Assembly (NCBI RefSeq): GCF_034258515.1
Contig: NZ_CP139438.1
Span: 1,426,001 to 1,490,000, forward strand
Source: Pseudarthrobacter oxydans
GTDB taxonomy: Bacteria; Actinomycetota; Actinomycetes; Actinomycetales; Micrococcaceae
Length of the DNA stretch: 64,000 bases
Direction of reading: 5' to 3'
In this document: positions 20,633-29,935 of the stretch, piece by piece
Layout: every line of letters starts with the position of its first letter
Numbering within the stretch: the first letter of the stretch is position 1
Made by a program: the position numbers and the translations under genes
The notes under the pieces: model-generated
The model's database searches: none
Told to the model about the DNA's origin: nothing
Seen by the model: the letters and a program-made list of their open reading frames with translations, nothing else

Positions 20633-20638
20633 TACACT
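20633..20638 (+). promoter_or_regulatory. -10 box of a leaderless promoter (lipid locus)
   Basis: TACACT ends 6 nt before the ATG at 20645; no ribosome-binding site lies in between. It starts the Lgt-like/radical SAM operon independently of the dehydrogenase gene 59 bp upstream. Confidence 0.6.
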
Positions 20639-20644
20639 CTGCTC

Positions 20645-21403
20645 ATGGTTGGGCTTCCCTTCACGGGAAACGGGCTGGTGCATGCCGGCTTCGTCGGGCT
20701 GGGAATCCTCGCAGCCCTGCTGTTCTACGCCTATGAAAAGCGCCGCCGCGGCCTGTCCGATCCACGGCTGTGGCCCATTGCCGGTTTCGCAGTAGCCTTC
20801 GGGGCCGTTGGTTCCAGGGTGCTCACCTGGGATATTTCCCGTCAGGTTTCCCTTGCAGACTGGTGGGGCAACGGCGACCGCAGTATCCTGGCTGGCCTTG
20901 TGGGCGCTTGGCTTGGTGTCCTCCTCGGCAAACGGCTGACCGGGTACCGGGAGAAGACCGGTGACTTGCTGGCCCCCGCGGTGGCCGTGGCGCTGGTCAT
21001 CGGCCGCGTCGGCTGCCTCCTGACCGAACTGCCCGGCACCCCGACCGGGGGAGCCTGGGGGATAGCCCTCACCCCGGCGCAGGCTGCGGTGCTCGGCGGG
21101 CCGGCCGAAGTGGGACTTCATCCATCCTTTGCCTATGAGATTGCCTTCCATCTTGTGGCGTTTGCGGCAATGTGGCGTTATCGGGACAGCTTGCCCCGCC
21201 CTGGCGACCTCTTCATCTGCTACGTGACTTCCTACGCCCTGTTCCGGTTCGGGGTCGAATTCGTGCGCGGCAACGAGGTGCTTTGGCTGGGGATGAGCCG
21301 TCCCCAATGGTTCCTCCTGGTGATTCTCCCCCTGCTGTCCTGGCGGATGCTGCGGGTATTCGGGAAACCACTCCGCCCGAAGTTGGAAGGAAAAATGGCA
21401 TGA
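20645..21403 (+). CDS. Lgt-like prolipoprotein diacylglyceryl transferase homologue
   Basis: 252 residues with about seven membrane segments. It keeps the Lgt core: GRVGCLLTELPGTPTGGAWG corresponds to the Lgt signature region, LHPSFAYE to the HPSQLYE element and YALFRFGVEFVRG to the catalytic R...E segment. Lgt moves diacylglycerol from phosphatidylglycerol to lipoprotein cysteines. The sequence around the signature is atypical (CLLTE in place of NFING), and the neighbour is a lipid-type radical SAM enzyme, so it may act on another acceptor. Housekeeping lgt would be expected elsewhere. The stop overlaps the next start (ATGA). Confidence 0.8.
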   Translation: MVGLPFTGNGLVHAGFVGLGILAALLFYAYEKRRRGLSDPRLWPIAGFAVAFGAVGSRVLTWDISRQVSLADWWGNGDRSILAGLVGAWLGVLLGKRLTGYREKTGDLLAPAVAVALVIGRVGCLLTELPGTPTGGAWGIALTPAQAAVLGGPAEVGLHPSFAYEIAFHLVAFAAMWRYRDSLPRPGDLFICYVTSYALFRFGVEFVRGNEVLWLGMSRPQWFLLVILPLLSWRMLRVFGKPLRPKLEGKMA

Positions 21404-21756
21404 GCGAGGACAACCCCGACGTTCCGCGGAACCCGCCCCCACCGCCCGGGCGTGAGGAGCCGCCCGCCGAACCAAGGCGCGGTTCCATGGGGCTCGGAAT
21501 CCTGGTGGGGGCTGCTGCCCTTTATGCCCTCTATTTCGGGACAACGAGTGGCATTGCTCCGGATGAAGGGTATAAGACCTTCCTCGCGGGGCCCGCCGCA
21601 TTAATACCAGTGGCAGCCTACCTGGGGCTGGCAGTTGTGCTTGCAGTCCAGCCCCGCACGTCCCGGCTGGGTGCGGGGCTGCTTATTGGCCTGGGGATCT
21701 TCACCCTGCTCGGCGGCGGGATCTGCGTTGGAGCCCTCGCGCGGATGCGAGCCTGA
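21400..21756 (+). CDS. Small membrane protein of the lipid locus
   Basis: 118 residues. A proline- and glutamate-rich N-terminal tail (about 28 residues) is followed by three hydrophobic segments (about 31-48, 60-80, 88-112). I do not recognise a family. The start ATG overlaps the stop of the Lgt-like gene by 4 nt with AAGG 9 nt upstream, and one nt separates its stop from the radical SAM gene, so it is tightly coupled to both. It may be a membrane partner or scaffold; this is inferred only from context. Confidence 0.7.
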   Translation: MSEDNPDVPRNPPPPPGREEPPAEPRRGSMGLGILVGAAALYALYFGTTSGIAPDEGYKTFLAGPAALIPVAAYLGLAVVLAVQPRTSRLGAGLLIGLGIFTLLGGGICVGALARMRA

Positions 21757-21757
21757 G

Positions 21758-23362
21758 ATGAACCCGTCCTCTGCGTCCCCGGCACGGACCCTGCCCGGCC
21801 CCGGCCAACCGCTGCGCGGCGACCGGATCCACCGGTACGTCACAGCATTCTGTCCCTATTGCCACGAAACGAATCGACCGCTCGCACAGGTGCGGCGGCT
21901 CTCCGGCGCGCTGCTGATCCGGGATGACCGGGTGTGGCTGGAACGCGGCTGCCCGGACCACGGGCTGGTCAGCACCTTGTACGACGAGTCTCCGGAAATC
22001 CTGCGCTACCTGGAGAAGTGGCAGGCGCCGACCAAGCAGCACATCCCTGACCAGGCCGGTAATTACCGCCAGATACCCGAGGCGTATGCCTACGGGCTTC
22101 CGGCAATGCAGACGCAGCACACCTGCATCCTCCTGCAGGACATCATCGAGCACTGCAATTTGCGCTGCCCCACCTGCTTCACAGCATCGGGCCCGCAGCT
22201 ACAGGGCGTCGCGCCCCTGGACCAGGTGCTGGCGAACGTTGACACCCGGCTTTCCCGTGAGAATGGGCGCCTGGATGTGCTGATGCTGTCCGGCGGGGAA
22301 CCGACGCTCTACCCGCAGCTAGCCGAACTGCTGGCGGAGCTGGTTGCGCGGCCGATTGTCCGGATCATGGTGAACAGCAACGGCATGCTGCTCGCCACCG
22401 ACGATGAGTTGCTCTCGCTGCTGGCCAGGCACCGGGACCGTGTGGAGGTCTACCTCCAGTACGACGGGCCGTCGAAGGAGGCCTCGGTCCACCACCGCGG
22501 CGGTGACCTGACGCGCTTCAAGGACGCAGCGATCTCACGCCTCTCCGAGGCGGGCGTCTTCACCACGCTGACCATGACGGTAACCCTCGGCGTCAACGAC
22601 GGCGAGGTCGGCGCCGTCGTCATGCGCGCCTTGGAGACCCCGTTTGTCGGTGGAGTCGCATTGCAACCGGTGTTTGGTTCAGGACGCGGGCACGGCATCG
22701 ACCCCATGGACCGGCTCACGCATACGGGCGTACTCCAAAGGCTCGCGGAGCAAACCAACGGCGTAGTTTCCTGGCACGACCTGACAGCCCTGCCGTGCTC
22801 GCATCCGCACTGCGCGTCCGTCGGGTACATGCTGAAGGACGATTCCGGAACGTGGCGATCGCTCGCTGCCCTGATCGGGCATGACCAACTGCTGGCATGG
22901 CTCGAGCTGCATCCTGACAGCATTGCCAACCGTATCGCCGACAGCGCAGTCCCGCTTGAACTGCGCAGCCTCATGAAGTCTTCGCTTCTCGACCTGCTCA
23001 GCGAGCAGTCTTCCCTTTCCCATCCGCGGACAGCCGATCTTTGGAAAAACATCTGCACCCAGTGCGACCTTGGCATCGGTACTCTCACCACGCTTGCCGC
23101 CGGCAAGCTTCCGGGCCAGCAACAGCGGCTGCGCCGGCTCCTCGCAGAGCGGGTCACCAGGATCATGGTGAAACCGTTCATGGATATGTCCACCATGATC
23201 GAGGAACGGCTCACCCAGTGCTGCGTGCACGTGGGAACCAAGAGCGACACCGGTGACCACCAGTGCGCTCCTTTCTGCGCAGTCCAGGCATGGCCAGCCC
23301 TGGCGGTGCAGCGGATGAGCACGGCCACTGGCCAACAGCTTCTCCCGGTCCGCCAGGTTTAA
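21758..23362 (+). CDS. Radical SAM protein of the tetraether/membrane-spanning-lipid synthase (Tes/MJ0619-like) type
   Basis: 534 residues. An N-terminal rubredoxin-like metal site is seen (FCPYC near residue 32 and GCPDHG about 30 residues later), then the radical SAM triad CNLRCPTC at residues 133-140, a SGGEPT motif near 178, and C-terminal cysteines (CTQCDLGIG, QCCVHVG, CAPFC) able to hold more clusters. This layout fits the MJ0619/Tes family, which joins lipid tails by C-C bonds in archaea; related bacterial enzymes are linked to membrane-spanning lipids. Substrate here is unknown. ATG 21758 is used; the ribosome-binding site is poor, so coupling from the previous gene is likely. Confidence 0.72.
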   Translation: MNPSSASPARTLPGPGQPLRGDRIHRYVTAFCPYCHETNRPLAQVRRLSGALLIRDDRVWLERGCPDHGLVSTLYDESPEILRYLEKWQAPTKQHIPDQAGNYRQIPEAYAYGLPAMQTQHTCILLQDIIEHCNLRCPTCFTASGPQLQGVAPLDQVLANVDTRLSRENGRLDVLMLSGGEPTLYPQLAELLAELVARPIVRIMVNSNGMLLATDDELLSLLARHRDRVEVYLQYDGPSKEASVHHRGGDLTRFKDAAISRLSEAGVFTTLTMTVTLGVNDGEVGAVVMRALETPFVGGVALQPVFGSGRGHGIDPMDRLTHTGVLQRLAEQTNGVVSWHDLTALPCSHPHCASVGYMLKDDSGTWRSLAALIGHDQLLAWLELHPDSIANRIADSAVPLELRSLMKSSLLDLLSEQSSLSHPRTADLWKNICTQCDLGIGTLTTLAAGKLPGQQQRLRRLLAERVTRIMVKPFMDMSTMIEERLTQCCVHVGTKSDTGDHQCAPFCAVQAWPALAVQRMSTATGQQLLPVRQV

Positions 23363-23368
23363 GGAGGA

Positions 23369-23743
23369 ATGATGAGCTCTGCCTCGGATGCCGGGCGCAT
23401 TGCAGCGGGGGCACTGCCGTCGGAGCTTGTGGCGTCCGGGAGGGCCCCGCACCCGTCCCGCAGCGGCGCAGGCCATGACAACCAGCCCACGGCACCGTAC
23501 GATCCGCTGCGCCTGTGCATTTTCGCCACTATCGCCCTGCTCGGCTGGGTGGCCGGCCCCGCAGCGCTGACGGTGTTCGCAACCATCGGGTTCGCCGGCT
23601 ACTGGAAAGCCCGGCGCAATGGCCTCAAGAAGTCAAACTGCTATCTTCAGGACACCAGGCTGGTACTGACGTATCTGGGAGCCCTGCTCGGGGCCGGGCT
23701 CTGGGGAATTTATGCCCTGGTGGCCGGTTTCCTTGGCCCTTGA
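23369..23743 (+). CDS. Membrane protein following the radical SAM enzyme
   Basis: 124 residues. A ~40-residue hydrophilic N-terminus precedes hydrophobic segments at roughly 46-75 and 98-120, with a basic loop GYWKARRNGLKKSNCY between them. No family recognised. A near-perfect AAGGAGG lies directly upstream of ATG 23369 (a second ATG follows at 23372 with better spacing). It starts 6 nt after the radical SAM stop and so belongs to the same operon. Confidence 0.7.
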   Translation: MMSSASDAGRIAAGALPSELVASGRAPHPSRSGAGHDNQPTAPYDPLRLCIFATIALLGWVAGPAALTVFATIGFAGYWKARRNGLKKSNCYLQDTRLVLTYLGALLGAGLWGIYALVAGFLGP

Positions 23744-23801
23744 CCATGCGCACATATTCGGCAGCAATGAATCAACCGGTATGAAAGGTTAGGTACCAGC
23801 A

Positions 23802-23987
23802 ATGACAACAGCACTTGTGAGGCCGCGCCGCGGCAAGATGATTGGCGGCGTCTGCGCAGCCCTGGCAGCCCGCTTTGGACTCCCGAAATTCCTGGTCCGG
23901 CTGGGCTTCGTGATCTTTGGGCTGGTGGGGGTAGGCGAACTCGCCTACATCGTGCTGTGGATCATCATTCCCAAGGAACCGGCGTAA
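23802..23987 (+). CDS. PspC-domain mini-protein
   Basis: 61 residues, essentially only a PspC domain: RPRRGKMIGGVCAALAARFG then a membrane helix ending VLWIIIPKE. PspC proteins sense or respond to membrane stress. It is 58 bp after the preceding gene, so it may be the last gene of the lipid locus or separately expressed. GC-rich inverted repeats follow, including the perfect palindrome at 24031-24044. Confidence 0.8.
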   Translation: MTTALVRPRRGKMIGGVCAALAARFGLPKFLVRLGFVIFGLVGVGELAYIVLWIIIPKEPA

Positions 23988-24679: not shown

Positions 24680-26242
24680 TCAGGCGGCCGGAACCGCCTG
24701 GAAGTGTTTTTCGATGAGCCCCTTGATGTCCTCGTGGCAGCCGCCGCAGCCAGTGCCCGCACGGGTTGCCTTGGACACGTCTGCCACCGTGGAGCAGCCT
24801 TCCTCAACTGCGCCCTGGATGGCGGCTCCGCTGACGCCCGCGCACCGGCATACGGTGCCGGCGGGATCGGCGGGACCCGTGCCGGGCAGCTGGTCCGGGC
24901 CGTCAAGGCGCAGCAGCAGGGACCGGTCTGCCGGCAGTTCGGCGCTGCGTTCGAACAGCCCCACAAGCTCGGCGGCGGTGCGTGGCATGCCCACAGCCAC
25001 CAGCCCTTCAAGAACGCCGCCGCGGGTCGTCATCTTCACGTAGCGGCCGTGCTCCGGATCCGCCCACTGGGCAACCTGGAGGCGCGGGCGCCCGTCCACG
25101 GCACCGGCGGACAGTGCTTCCTCGTCCCACGGCTCGGCAGCGTTGTCCCCGGCCACGGCCATGTTCATGCCGCGTGCCTTCAGGACGATGACGCCGGCCT
25201 GCTCCGCAGGCAGTTCCGGCAGGACTTCGGCTTGCTCCGGCGTGCCTGCGGCCAGGAGGGCCAGGTATTCGGCCAGCCATTCGGCCTGGCGCCAGCCCGG
25301 CCCCACCAGGCCAGACGGTCCTTTGGCATTGCGGCAGGATGCGCAGCCAGGGTCCGGGCAGCGCACCTCCGCGCAGTCGCCGATGGCGAAGATGTGCGGC
25401 TCGTGGTGGGCGCGGAGCTTGTGGTCCACCAGGATTCCTGCGGACGTGGAAAGCCCGCAGCCCTCGGCCAGCTCCGTTCGGGGACGGACGCCGCAGGACA
25501 GCACCAGGAGGTCGCCGTCGATCGCTGACCCGTCATCAAGCAGCAAAGCGGAGAAACCGCCGTCGGGAGCGTTGTGCTCCACCCCGGTGGAGCGGGCATT
25601 GCCGGCCATCCGGACGCCGCAGCGGCGCAGGCTGGCAGCCAGGACGGCGCCGCCGCCGCGGTCGATGTTGCGTCCCAGGGGGTGGGGCCCGTTGTGGACC
25701 ACGGTGACGGTGGCGCCTTCTTCGGCCGCGGCCAGGGCCGTCTCCAGGCCCAGGACGCCGCCGCCCAGGACGACTACCCGCTTGCCGCCCTCCACTGCCT
25801 GGCGCAGCACGTCGGCGTCACGCAGGTCGCGCAGCGCGGTGACGCCGGCCGGAAGGACAGGGTGGGTGGGGTCCGGGTTGATGCCGGTGAGGTTGGGAAT
25901 GACCGGGCGTGAGCCGGTGGCAAAGACCAGGCGGTCGTAGTGGACTGCTGCGCCGTCGGAGAGGATGACCTGCTGCCGGGCCCGGTCCACTCTGCGGACG
26001 CGGAGGCCGAGGCGGACATCCACACCGTCGCCGGCCAGGGCGTCCGCGTCGGAGAGTGCCAGGGCATCGGCCGTGGTGCGTCCAACGCCGAGGTCGGCGA
26101 CGAGAACCCGGTTGTAGGCTGCTTCAGCTTCCTCGCCCACCACAATCAGGGTGGCCAGGCCGGTGCGGACCGCGGGCAGGAGTTCGTCCACCAGCCGGGC
26201 CGCCACCGGGCCGAATCCCACAATGACAATCTGCTCGCTCAT
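24680..26242 (-). CDS. Nitrate reductase electron-transfer flavoprotein (NasB-like)
   Basis: 520 residues. FAD/NAD(P) oxidoreductase with VIVGFGPVAARLVDELL at the N-terminus and VVVLGGGVLGLETALAAA in the middle, plus a C-terminal BFD-type [2Fe-2S] domain (VCRCAGVSGAAI and GTGCGGCHEDIKG). It should pass electrons from NAD(P)H to the catalytic nitrate reductase encoded just upstream. A further cysteine cluster (CPDPGCASC) precedes the linker. The start overlaps the nasC stop by 4 nt (ATGA), so the two are translationally coupled and probably made in equal amounts. Confidence 0.87.
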   Translation of the reverse strand: MSEQIVIVGFGPVAARLVDELLPAVRTGLATLIVVGEEAEAAYNRVLVADLGVGRTTADALALSDADALAGDGVDVRLGLRVRRVDRARQQVILSDGAAVHYDRLVFATGSRPVIPNLTGINPDPTHPVLPAGVTALRDLRDADVLRQAVEGGKRVVVLGGGVLGLETALAAAEEGATVTVVHNGPHPLGRNIDRGGGAVLAASLRRCGVRMAGNARSTGVEHNAPDGGFSALLLDDGSAIDGDLLVLSCGVRPRTELAEGCGLSTSAGILVDHKLRAHHEPHIFAIGDCAEVRCPDPGCASCRNAKGPSGLVGPGWRQAEWLAEYLALLAAGTPEQAEVLPELPAEQAGVIVLKARGMNMAVAGDNAAEPWDEEALSAGAVDGRPRLQVAQWADPEHGRYVKMTTRGGVLEGLVAVGMPRTAAELVGLFERSAELPADRSLLLRLDGPDQLPGTGPADPAGTVCRCAGVSGAAIQGAVEEGCSTVADVSKATRAGTGCGGCHEDIKGLIEKHFQAVPAA

Positions 26243-28473
26243 GAGGCCTCCGTCGTTTGAAGCACGTTGGTGGAGAGGGGAACGGCCACGGGCCGGACCC
26301 ACACGGTGTTGAATTTGAATTCGGGCATCCCGGAGATGGGGTCCGTGGCCGCCTCGGTGAGGCGGTTGGCGCTCTCCAGTTCGGGGAAGTGGAAGGGCAG
26401 GAAGACCGTCTCGGGACGGATGGCGTTGCTGAGTTGGGCCCGGCACACCACTTCGCCGCGCTCGTTGGCCACCGACACGAGCGCGCCTTCGGTGATGCCC
26501 ATCGATGCTGCGGCTGCCGGATGGATCTGCACCTGTGCCTCCGGCTGCGCTGCCAGCAGTTCCGGCACCCGTCGGGTCTGCGCGCCGGACTGGTAGTGCT
26601 CCAGGAGGCGGCCCGTGATCAGTGTCATGGTCTTGGCAGCTATGCCATCCCCTGCAGGGGGCGCAGCAGGAGTACGACGGCGGCGCGGCGTCACCGGGAC
26701 CATCACGGCTTTGCCGTCAGCGTGCGCGAAAGCGTCCTGGAACAGGCGCGGCGTGCCGGTGCTGCCGGCGGGGTAGGGCCAGTAGGCGGCCTCCCCGCGG
26801 TCCAGCATGGCGTAGTCGATGCCCGAGTAGTCGGCCAGCCCGCCGGCGGAGGCCAGGCGGAGTTCCTCGAAGACGGTTTCGGGGTCTTCGCTGTAGGTGG
26901 ACGGTGCGTCCAGGGCCTCGGCCAGCCGCGCCATGATCCAGAGTTCGCTGCGGGCACCCGGCGGGGGCGCAAGGGCGCGGCGGCGGCGCAGCACCCGCCC
27001 TTCGAGGTTGGTCAGGGTGCCTTCCTCCTCCGCCCACTGGAGCACCGGGAGGATGAGGTCCGCCTCGACTGCGGTCTCGGACATAAAGAAGTCGCAGACC
27101 ATCAGGAAGTCCAGGCTGCGGAGCCCCTGGATCACCGCGTTCGCGTCAGGGGAAGCCACGGCGATATTCGAGGCATGGACGAAAAGGCAACGGACGCCGT
27201 CGGGCTTTCCCAGTGACTGAAGCAGCTGGACGGCGGGCAGGCCGGGGCCGGGAATAAGTTCCTCGGGAACGCCCCAGACGCCGGCTACATGGGCGCGGGC
27301 GGCGGGGTCGGTGATCTTGCGGTAGCCGGGGAGCTGGTCCGCCTTCTGGCCATGTTCGCGGCCGCCCTGGCCGTTGCCCTGGCCGGTGAGGGTGCCGTAG
27401 CCGCTGCGGGCGGAACCGGGCAGGCCCAGCAGGAGGCTCAGGTTGATGGCCGCCGTTGCGGTATCGGTGCCGTCGACGTGCTGTTCCACGCCGCGGCCGG
27501 TGAGGATGTAGCTGCCGCCCTGGCGGGCCCCGGCGGCGAGCCGGCGGGCTGTTTCCCGAATGAGTTCGGCCGGGACGCCGGTGAGGGACTGGACGCGTTC
27601 GGGCCAGAAGGAGTTGACGCTGCGGGCTACGGCGCTGTAGCCGGAGGTGCGCTCCTCCAGGTAGGAAGTGTCCACCAGGTTCTCGTGGATGACCACGTGG
27701 GAAATGCCCAGGAGGAGGGCCAGGTCGGTGCCCGGCAGGGGCTGGAGGTGGAGGCCTCCGCCGTCGGCCGTGAAGGCAGCCGTGGCGGAGCGGCGGGGAT
27801 CAACCACGATCAGCCCGCCGGCGTCGCGCGTTCCCTTGAGGTGCTGCACAAAGGGCGGCATGGTCTCGGCCACATTCGAGCCCAGCATCAAAATGGTGCT
27901 GGCGGTGTCCAAGGACTCGAGCGGGAACGGCAGGCCGCGGTCGACGCCGAAGGCCCGCATCCCGGCAGCCGCGGCGGAGGACATGCAGAAGCGGCCGTTG
28001 TAATCGATCCTCGACGTGCCCAGGGCAAGCCGGGCGAACTTGCCCAGCATGTAGGCCTTTTCGTTGGTCAGGCCACCGCCGCCGAAAACGCCGACGGCGT
28101 CCGCCCCGTGGCGTGCGCGGGCATCCTTCACCGCGGCGACTGCAAGGTCCAGGGCCTGCTCCCAGCTGATGGGGCGGTGGACGCCGTCGGGGCCTTTCAG
28201 CAGCGGCTCGGTGATCCGGCCGGCGTGGTTCAGGAGGCTGGGGGACGTCCAGCCCTTGCGGCAGAGGCCGCCGCGGTTGGTGGGGAAATCCCGTCCCTGG
28301 ACTGTGAGCGGAACGTTGGTGGGCGCCTGGGGCGCTTCATGTTCCGCTGCGGGTGGTGCGGACACGGGGACTGGCCCCGGCTGGGAAGCCGGGGCCAGGC
28401 CCGTTGGAGACGTGAGCGTCATGGCGCACTGCAGGGCGCAGTAAGGGCAGTGCGTGTCGGCGCTTGTGGTCAT
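26239..28473 (-). CDS. nasC: Assimilatory nitrate reductase catalytic subunit
   Basis: 744 residues. Molybdopterin oxidoreductase of the NasC/NarB type that reduces nitrate to nitrite in the cytoplasm. The N-terminal [4Fe-4S] cysteines are in CPYCALQC with the fourth in GGLCRKGWTSP; Mo-cofactor motifs include GVFGGGGLTNEKAY, NGRFCMSSA and GSNVAETMPP. The C-terminal molydopterin-dinucleotide domain starts near TLITGRLLEHYQSG. ATG 28473 begins 1 nt after the narK stop and is preferred over an in-frame ATG 60 nt upstream inside narK. Confidence 0.93.
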   Translation of the reverse strand: MTTSADTHCPYCALQCAMTLTSPTGLAPASQPGPVPVSAPPAAEHEAPQAPTNVPLTVQGRDFPTNRGGLCRKGWTSPSLLNHAGRITEPLLKGPDGVHRPISWEQALDLAVAAVKDARARHGADAVGVFGGGGLTNEKAYMLGKFARLALGTSRIDYNGRFCMSSAAAAGMRAFGVDRGLPFPLESLDTASTILMLGSNVAETMPPFVQHLKGTRDAGGLIVVDPRRSATAAFTADGGGLHLQPLPGTDLALLLGISHVVIHENLVDTSYLEERTSGYSAVARSVNSFWPERVQSLTGVPAELIRETARRLAAGARQGGSYILTGRGVEQHVDGTDTATAAINLSLLLGLPGSARSGYGTLTGQGNGQGGREHGQKADQLPGYRKITDPAARAHVAGVWGVPEELIPGPGLPAVQLLQSLGKPDGVRCLFVHASNIAVASPDANAVIQGLRSLDFLMVCDFFMSETAVEADLILPVLQWAEEEGTLTNLEGRVLRRRRALAPPPGARSELWIMARLAEALDAPSTYSEDPETVFEELRLASAGGLADYSGIDYAMLDRGEAAYWPYPAGSTGTPRLFQDAFAHADGKAVMVPVTPRRRRTPAAPPAGDGIAAKTMTLITGRLLEHYQSGAQTRRVPELLAAQPEAQVQIHPAAAASMGITEGALVSVANERGEVVCRAQLSNAIRPETVFLPFHFPELESANRLTEAATDPISGMPEFKFNTVWVRPVAVPLSTNVLQTTEAS

Positions 28474-28474
28474 G

Positions 28475-29935
28475 TTAGACGTGTCCCATCGCATTTCGGT
28501 TGGCGTTGCGGATGTAGCAGGCCCAGCAGACAACCAGCATCAGGACATACGCTCCGACGAAGCCGTAGAAAGCGGATGTGTAGGAGCCGCTGGCGGAGTT
28601 CGATGCGTTCAGTACCTGGGGGATCACGAATCCGCCGTAGGCGCCGATGGCCGAGATGAGGCCAAGGGCCGAGGAGGCCAGGCGCTGGGTGGCTACGGAG
28701 CTGGCGCCGTTCTTTGCTGCCCGGCTGGAGGTGGCGAAGATGACCGGGATCATCCGGTACGTGGCGCCGTTTCCAAAGCCGCTGGCGGTGAAGAGCATCA
28801 GGAAGAGCGCCAGGAAGAGCCAGAAGTTCTTCAGCGGCAGGGTCCAGATCATGGTCAGGGTGATCACGGCCATGGAAGCGAATGCCGCGATGGTCATGCG
28901 GGCGCCGCCCATCCGGTCAGCCATCCGTCCGCCGTAGGGCCGGGCCAGGGAACCCACCAGCGGGCCGAGGAACGCGAGGGACAGTGCCACGGTCCCCACT
29001 CCGATCGAGGAGAAGGCCGGGAAGTAGTCCTTGATGAGCTTGGGGAAGACACCGGCGAATCCGATGAACGAACCGAAGGTGCCGATGTACAGCAGTGCCA
29101 TGATCCACAGGTGCGGTTCCTTCAGCGCTGCGATCGAACCGGCCACGTCACCCTTGGCGCTGGTGAGGTTGTCCATGTATTTGAAGGCGCCGAACGCGGC
29201 GATCAGGATGAAGGGGACCCACATCCAGCCAGCCATGGGGAGGTTGACGCTGCCGACGGCGAGCATGGTGATCACAATCGGGACGGCGAGCTGTGCCACG
29301 GCGGCACCCATGTTGCCGCCCGCAGCGTTCAGGCCCAGTGCCCAGCCCTTTTCACGGGCGGGGTAGAAGAACGTGATGTTGGCCATGGAGCTGGCAAAGT
29401 TGCCGCCGCCGAAGCCGGCCAGGGCTGCCACGAGGAGCATGACGCCGAAGGGGGTTTCCGGGTTGGACACGCAGAGTCCGAGGCCGATGGCGGGGATCAG
29501 GAGCAGCAGGGCGGACACGATGGTCCAGTTGCGGCCGCCGAAGCGGGGAACCATGAAGGTGTAGGGGATGCGGAGGGTTGCGCCCACCAGGCTGGGCATG
29601 GAGATGAGCCAGAAAATCTCGGAGGTGGAGAACGTGAAGCCTGCTGCGGGCAGCTGGACCACAACGATGGACCAGAGCTGCCATACGACGAAGCCGAGGA
29701 ATTCGGCGAAGATGGACCAGTTGAGGTTGCGGCGGGCAATGGTGCGGCCGGCGGTTTCCCACTGCTCCTTGTTCTCGGCATCCCAGTTGGCGATCCAGCG
29801 GCCGGGGCGGAATTCAAGGGCAGGGGAGTCTGTGGTGCGGGTGGTGCCGGGCTGTGCGCTGGCGGCTGCGGAACCTTGTACGTCGAGGTCAAGGGAATTG
29901 CCGGTGCCGGCATCAGCGGTGCGATCAACAGTCAC
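28475..29935 (-). CDS. narK: Nitrate/nitrite transporter NarK (MFS)
   Basis: 486 residues, 12 membrane segments, nitrate-nitrite porter branch of the major facilitator superfamily. The signature region GFGGGNFASSMANITFF matches the nitrate signature, with a second glycine-rich element (GFGNGATYRMIPVIF) near the C-terminus. The ~60-residue hydrophilic N-terminus is normal for actinobacterial NarK. Start is GTG 29935 with AGGAGG 6 nt upstream. First gene of narK-nasC-nasB-like, driven by a GlnR-like promoter. Confidence 0.94.
   Translation of the reverse strand: MTVDRTADAGTGNSLDLDVQGSAAASAQPGTTRTTDSPALEFRPGRWIANWDAENKEQWETAGRTIARRNLNWSIFAEFLGFVVWQLWSIVVVQLPAAGFTFSTSEIFWLISMPSLVGATLRIPYTFMVPRFGGRNWTIVSALLLLIPAIGLGLCVSNPETPFGVMLLVAALAGFGGGNFASSMANITFFYPAREKGWALGLNAAGGNMGAAVAQLAVPIVITMLAVGSVNLPMAGWMWVPFILIAAFGAFKYMDNLTSAKGDVAGSIAALKEPHLWIMALLYIGTFGSFIGFAGVFPKLIKDYFPAFSSIGVGTVALSLAFLGPLVGSLARPYGGRMADRMGGARMTIAAFASMAVITLTMIWTLPLKNFWLFLALFLMLFTASGFGNGATYRMIPVIFATSSRAAKNGASSVATQRLASSALGLISAIGAYGGFVIPQVLNASNSASGSYTSAFYGFVGAYVLMLVVCWACYIRNANRNAMGHV

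Follow-up and report, generated by a model that had tools for sequence, protein, structure and literature searches.

A four-gene cassette pairing lgtX with a radical SAM gene

The 64,000-nucleotide stretch of Pseudarthrobacter oxydans DNA analyzed here (NZ_CP139438.1, positions 1,426,001 to 1,490,000; hereafter the window), part of a 4.44 Mb genome, carries a module of four plus-strand genes in which an Lgt paralogue is followed by a small membrane protein, a Tes-fold radical SAM (S-adenosylmethionine) protein and a second small membrane protein. We coined the names lgtX, SM2 and SM4 for three of them. The genes lgtX (20645..21403, 252 amino acids), SM2 (21400..21756, three-helix protein), the radical SAM gene (21758..23362, 534 amino acids) and SM4 (23369..23743) overlap or nearly touch, with gaps of -4, 1 and 6 nt as the first-pass annotation had given them; lgtX and the radical SAM gene, described there as fused, are adjacent but separate open reading frames (ORFs). 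A TACACT -10-like box lies within a putative leaderless promoter element on the plus strand (20633..20647), and the same box recurs six bases 5’ of the lgtX ATG in 17 of 18 Arthrobacter-type rows. This recurrence at equal spacing in relatives supports a leaderless lgtX transcript, as was originally suggested.

We searched 345 genomes of the class Actinomycetes for the radical SAM protein (matches at E 1e-20 or better) and for LgtX (E 1e-15 or better). Radical SAM matches were recovered from 33 genomes, 21 of them at 63-100% identity and 12 at 31-34%, and lgtX matches from exactly the same 21 genomes as the cassette radical SAM protein. The lgtX gene was immediately 5’ of a full-length radical SAM gene at 26 of 27 named loci, the sole exception (L006) being a contig that starts inside SM2, and at all 20 further loci fetched from the class genomes. 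The pairing proposed in the first-pass annotation is therefore more than chance. Pairwise distances of LgtX and the radical SAM protein were correlated (Mantel r 0.93, n=31; none of 1000 permutations reached this value), a value from which shared species history was not removed. Comparison of these sequences shows joint inheritance of LgtX and the Tes-fold radical SAM enzyme, extending in most lineages to SM2 and SM4. SM4 was present in 43 of 51 cassette loci, two mycobacterial plasmid loci being among the eight without it. Genome-wide, SM4 matched 13 of 246 class genomes; 12 matches were strong, all in cassette-positive genomes, and the other was a broken remnant (G127). The motifs DPLxLC (C50) and SxCxL (C91) of SM4 were invariant, and SM4 had no match in Pfam or NCBIfam at E 1. 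A positive loop leads us to assign its two conserved cysteines, by eye, to the cytosolic side.

Within its own genus the cassette was found in 14 of 61 genomes, the window genome counted, so that its distribution is patchy; the named Pseudarthrobacter contig GA104 (L003) encodes a radical SAM protein 99.8% identical to that of the window. Ten plasmid records held relatives, some of which were used in the tree and the neighborhood comparison. Large plasmids of M. avium and M. branderi (L176 and L178) carry the cassette as well, each with two SM2 copies and with SM4 not found. In Pseudarthrobacter siccitolerans 4J27 (L032:5940-6300) only remnants were seen, pieces of the radical SAM gene and SM4 beside PspC, and two Arthrobacter strains (L030, L031) have partial second copies. 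A further decayed piece lies at L235:5019-5187. Together these pieces point to repeated loss, or to duplicates that later decayed.

The gene that follows SM4 encodes a PspC-domain protein (23802..23987, plus strand; Pfam PspC, 69.8 bits) and had been counted in the operon by the first-pass annotation. A gap of 58 nt separates it from SM4. It accompanies 4 of 51 cassette loci, which are all from Arthrobacter or Pseudarthrobacter, and the flavodoxin gene after it accompanies 3 of 51; neither therefore belongs to the module. Comparison of neighborhoods ruled out both of these and an upstream dehydrogenase-like gene as members. After the cassette region, minus-strand ORFs at 24680-28533 resemble, by eye, an assimilatory nitrate/nitrite reductase pair.

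The two enzymes

LgtX belongs to the Lgt family and fold (Pfam LGT, 86.1 bits, cut-off 24.9) and falls below the threshold of the NCBIfam lgt equivalog TIGR00544 (41.2 bits, cut-off 118.9). A single-sequence search of solved structures gave no match; a profile search gave E. coli Lgt (5azb). Foldseek returned no match below E 0.001 for the LgtX model, and VIA-align ranked 5azb first. We paired LgtX with 5azb by profile and counted conservation in two alignments, A2 (42 sequences) and A3 (21 sequences). LgtX retains R121, E128, G131 and R201: R121 (R143 of E. coli) was kept in 41/42 and 21/21 members, R201 (R239) in 42/42 and 21/21, and the E151 and G154 positions in all, after a one-residue gap in the pairing. 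Two other positions were altered in every member of both alignments, H103 (where Y, W or F may also stand in Lgt) to leucine (L82) and N146 to cysteine (C124); both residues are essential in E. coli Lgt. The tyrosine Y26 is gone as well, either replaced by H13 or, if H13 corresponds to the neighboring histidine, lost to a variable residue; the H13-for-Y26 pairing is the one given by the profile alignment and by the published alignment in PMC13251419. The description of LgtX as an Lgt-like transferase with an altered signature was borne out in the aligned members. According to a passage of the same paper, the second Lgt of M. smegmatis carries N146C, with activity presumed to be low, and N146C occurs in other distant Lgt proteins (PMC13251419). 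The same P. oxydans genome encodes the separate housekeeping Lgt that the first-pass annotation had left for confirmation (L001), with GRWGN at the N146 site and a tryptophan near H103 by eye.

The radical SAM protein, for which no transmembrane helix was predicted, matched Pfam Radical_SAM at 72.4 bits and the N-terminal ribbon PF23545 at 41.5 bits. Its rubredoxin-type site, C32-x2-C35 ... C65-x2-H68 (21851..21961, plus strand), aligned to Tes C9, C12, C33 and H36, and the cluster motif CNLRCPTC (C133, C137 and C140) lies at 22154..22177 on the same strand. All seven of these residues were invariant in 58 aligned sequences, as were seven C-terminal cysteines (C347, C352, C433, C436, C488, C489 and C507), which covers the cysteine features first noticed in this one sequence, the CPYC/CPDH site, the triad and the extra C-terminal cysteines. 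The structural alignment to MJ0619 envisaged earlier gave a match over 426 residues. The Tes-type fold is accordingly present, together with the rubredoxin-type site and a CX3CX2C motif.

Identity with a tail-coupling enzyme did not hold to the same extent. The protein scored below threshold against NCBIfam Tes NF045702 (142.7 bits, cut-off 450) and against TrsS NF045646, its best NCBIfam match (186 bits, cut-off 490); neither cut-off was exceeded in any of 296 genomes of the phylum. The [Fe4S4]N cysteines (Tes C73, C77 and C80) were absent from all seven cassette rows of alignment A4, in which Tes Met439 was replaced by Lys472 and Tyr459 by Val492; K472 and V492 were invariant in the 58 sequences. 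In our tree the cassette family formed its own long-branch clade, apart from Tes and from TrsS-like proteins. The section of PMC9433317 on these residues describes Met439 and Tyr459 as completely conserved in 1,000 archaeal Tes homologues, a statement that covers archaea only, and reports that Y459 variants stay active. Since Y459 is not essential in Tes, loss of this tyrosine alone is a weak argument against tail coupling. The proposal of a Tes/MJ0619-type enzyme in an undescribed lipid or lipoprotein-anchor cross-linking pathway is therefore supported as to fold and, in the form given, not as to Tes-type tail coupling: a Tes-fold enzyme so tightly paired with an altered Lgt makes a lipid or lipid-anchor setting likely.

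SM2 and its cysteine

SM2 has a proline-rich N-terminal tail, three predicted transmembrane helices and, nine residues before its end, a cysteine (Cys109). It was initially described as a three-helix protein; the three predicted helices were recovered, and the conserved cysteine may be the better clue. We searched the 51 cassette loci with a profile truncated before the cysteine, the rows used to build it being among the matches, and detected SM2 in 49. A cysteine followed just past the profile end in 61 of 62 SM2 stretches. This residue is kept in a protein that is otherwise hypervariable: across 63 copies, the C-terminal 95 residues average 33% pairwise identity. Two or three SM2 copies lie in a row between lgtX and the radical SAM gene in at least 8 of 26 named loci, and a scan without a cysteine requirement found, by eye, that three-helix ORFs in this position end with such a cysteine. 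Tandem copies would suit a substrate.

The setting of the cysteine is also conserved: position -3 is G or A in 52 of 61 copies, -2 is G in 58, -1 is bulky in 60 and +2 is V or T in 50. Ordinary lipoprotein status was considered for SM2 and rejected, as the canonical lipobox [LVI][ASTVI][GAS]C was found in none of the 61 copies. The last helix is preceded by 13 residues of net positive charge in 60 of 61 copies, and no charge occurs among the 17 residues leading up to the cysteine in 55. These features fit a last helix that would run N-in, C-out and end on the side where Lgt works.

We compared SM2 in genomes with and without the cassette. Every one of the 21 cassette-positive class genomes has it, always at the cassette; among the 324 cassette-negative ones it was detected in 6. 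Three of these six matches reach the cysteine site (G346, G173 and G330) and none has the cysteine; the homologue in G346 has the same C-terminal pattern with glycine instead. The match in G248 stops before the site, and those in G316 and G426 seem to be membrane proteins of unrelated kinds. The association of the cysteine with the cassette gave a Fisher P of ~9e-5, calculated by hand and with kinship not removed. An orphan SM2-like gene at L234:5001-5588, in a cassette-less genome, has glycine where cysteine is otherwise kept. As far as these sequences go, the cysteine appears to have its job only alongside the cassette, and the best evidence for this, though small, is the lack of the cysteine in cassette-less homologues.

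Proposed function and comparison with known systems

In Lgt substrates, which need a lipobox, the cysteine that receives the diacylglyceryl group lies where an N-in helix ends on the outer side; signal peptidase II requires a small residue at -1. In the simplest reading, LgtX and SM2 are enzyme and substrate, and the radical SAM partner would most simply supply or alter the lipid, by analogy with Tes, whose fold accommodates two phospholipids. We tentatively propose, at chances somewhat short of even, that the cassette is a dedicated lipid-attachment module in which SM2 is the acceptor of LgtX and the lipid is altered by the radical enzyme. Like Lgt, LgtX would draw the diacylglyceryl group from phosphatidylglycerol, and it would transfer this group to the cysteine with which the last SM2 helix ends on the outer side. 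Because the residue ahead of this cysteine is bulky, cleavage by signal peptidase II is not expected, and SM2 would remain a lipidated integral membrane protein. The radical SAM enzyme might modify the hydrocarbon chain of the donor lipid from the cytosolic side, by coupling, thiolation or another C-H change, a step of which we are less sure; a donor chain altered in this way would make the anchor unusual. SM4 may hold the enzyme at the membrane, or supply it with lipid or electrons. A more specific form of the proposal, lipidation outside the lipobox rule in which LgtX puts a diacylglyceryl group built or altered by the radical enzyme, possibly tail-coupled and membrane-spanning, on the C-terminal cysteine of an uncut polytopic protein, seems to us unlikely.

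Several observations weigh against the lipid-attachment proposal. LgtX is without H103 and N146, the lipobox is missing from every SM2 copy, and one SM2-like copy (L016) has tryptophan for the cysteine. The SM2 topology rests on one loop, which is a weak point: the stretch before the first helix was net positive in just 26 of 61 copies, so the N-in topology is not firm. SM4 was not detected in 8 of 51 loci. The radical SAM model was of middling confidence (mean predicted local distance difference test score, pLDDT, 66.4), and lipid binding by this enzyme rests on the Tes analogy. With the radical step in the cytosol and the transfer on the outer side, the lipid would also have to be flipped, which no cassette gene explains. 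Finally, four genomes of the phylum outside the class, three of one genus (G526, G663 and G546) and one of another (G580), have lgtX beside a cassette-type radical SAM match, which is incomplete in G546 and split in two in G580, and SM2 was not found there in a search without a positive control, so that the empty answer shows little. Taken as it stands, it means that SM2 cannot be the sole acceptor unless it is replaced in these genomes.

The cassette might instead make free membrane-spanning lipids, with the radical SAM enzyme coupling acyl tails like Tes or Mss, LgtX remodeling or releasing head groups, and SM2 and SM4 as helpers. The Tes fold and the near full-length alignment favor this explanation, as do the accounts, in parts of the respective papers, of Tes isolated with bacterial phospholipids bound (PMC9433317) and of Mss as proposed to act on lipids with phosphatidylglycerol head groups (PMC13274423). 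We consider it unlikely, if still worth weighing, since neither the [Fe4S4]N triad nor the Met439 and Tyr459 positions are kept, the enzyme sits in a separate long-branch clade, and the cassette-linked cysteine of SM2 is left unexplained. It is also rather unlikely, in our estimate, that the radical SAM enzyme modifies protein, acting on a cysteine or another side chain of SM2 or SM4 (for example by a thioether cross-link) before LgtX lipidates the product, as in a membrane-bound system of the ribosomally synthesized and post-translationally modified peptide type. A TrsS-like reaction of a small compound of thiol, selenium or metalloid type, of which LgtX would make a lipid-linked form, is improbable; that TrsS acts on such compounds is itself a guess from its neighbors. 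TrsS is the best NCBIfam match, and the C-terminal PC..P.C and C..C patterns are common to TrsS-like proteins and not to Tes. The score is, however, far below the cut-off, the tree nests neither family in the other, a methyltransferase homologue accompanies 18 of 18 TrsS-like loci against 1 of 51 cassette loci (L007), and an lgtX match was found at none of the 18, some on short contigs. Very improbable is a weak spare Lgt for ordinary lipoproteins merely beside an unrelated radical SAM gene: low residual activity is presumed for the M. smegmatis N146C paralogue in the passage on it (PMC13251419), but the two genes share the same 21 of 345 genomes, are adjacent in 26/27 and 20/20 loci, and LgtX carries identical active-site changes across 42 and 21 aligned sequences.

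The cassette brings known enzyme kinds together in a module of which we found no description in the open-licence literature; a search for lgt with radical SAM, in combination with tetraether or Actinobacteria, gave none, and nothing was found there on MSMEG_3222. Zeng et al. proposed bacterial Tes homologues of Acidobacteria and Proteobacteria as possible enzymes of branched glycerol dialkyl glycerol tetraethers (PMC8941075), and Mss matches were reported in Black Sea Actinobacteriota (PMC11868695); the passages concerned mention no Lgt partner for either. A statement in PMC9433317 names Tes homologues of bacteria from which biphytanyl chains are not known. The cassette joins two enzyme kinds that no paper we found reports together, gives one group of bacterial Tes-like proteins a concrete partner and a substrate candidate, and offers a reason for the second Lgt of some actinobacteria. 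If SM2 is lipidated, it would be an exception to the lipobox requirement; if the lipid is tail-coupled, common soil bacteria would join the candidate producers of membrane-spanning lipids. Should the cassette put an unusual lipid on a membrane protein, this would be a new means by which bacteria anchor proteins in their membranes. The more specific form of the proposal, if true, would mean that soil actinobacteria, and mycobacterial plasmids too, encode an integral protein whose anchor spans the membrane or is otherwise built by radical chemistry.

Compared with Tes (GDGT-MAS; MJ0619, PDB 7TOL and 7TOM; NF045702), the cassette enzyme is without the [Fe4S4]N triad, has Lys472 and Val492, and adds PCSHPHC and CxxC motifs and an lgtX partner. 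Among the 120 of 8000 protein matches listed there were two Methanocaldococcus proteins and no Mss, and many of the named ones were Bacteroidota. A Bacteroidota family, with Aequorivita, Tenacibaculum and Flavobacterium among its named members, is 31-35% identical to M. jannaschii Tes, and eight of its rows (P0241, P0262, P0268, P0276, P0296, P0299, P0305 and P0347) have PFE where Tes has PFC. Mss, likened to the cassette enzyme by description only, is a lipid tail-coupling enzyme whose model reportedly has a Tes-like architecture; the same description sets it apart, in that the passage on Mss discusses it with ger and not with Lgt (PMC13274423).

TrsS (NF045646) shares with the cassette enzyme the C-terminal cysteines PC..P.C, C..C, CC and PFC. 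The distant group fits the NCBIfam TrsS type, although no genome was above the TrsS cut-off. These TrsS-like proteins, 31-34% identical to the cassette enzyme, mostly keep the [Fe4S4]N triad; the methyltransferase neighbor that sets their loci apart is a pattern seen here and not a published definition. Their genes (L142-L157, L159, L160 and L180-L182) occur in actinobacteria and on haloarchaeal plasmids, a methyltransferase homologue is near them in three of three annotated records also, and some loci have DoxX/MauE-like or thioredoxin-like genes by eye.

LgtX differs from Lgt (5AZB) by H103L, N146C and the changed Y26 position, and is not the housekeeping copy of its genome. Its closest published counterpart in these respects is the second Lgt of M. 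smegmatis, MSMEG_5408, which has N146C and, in the alignment printed in PMC13251419, Y26H; set beside LgtX by that description, MSMEG_5408 likely belongs to the same cassette type.

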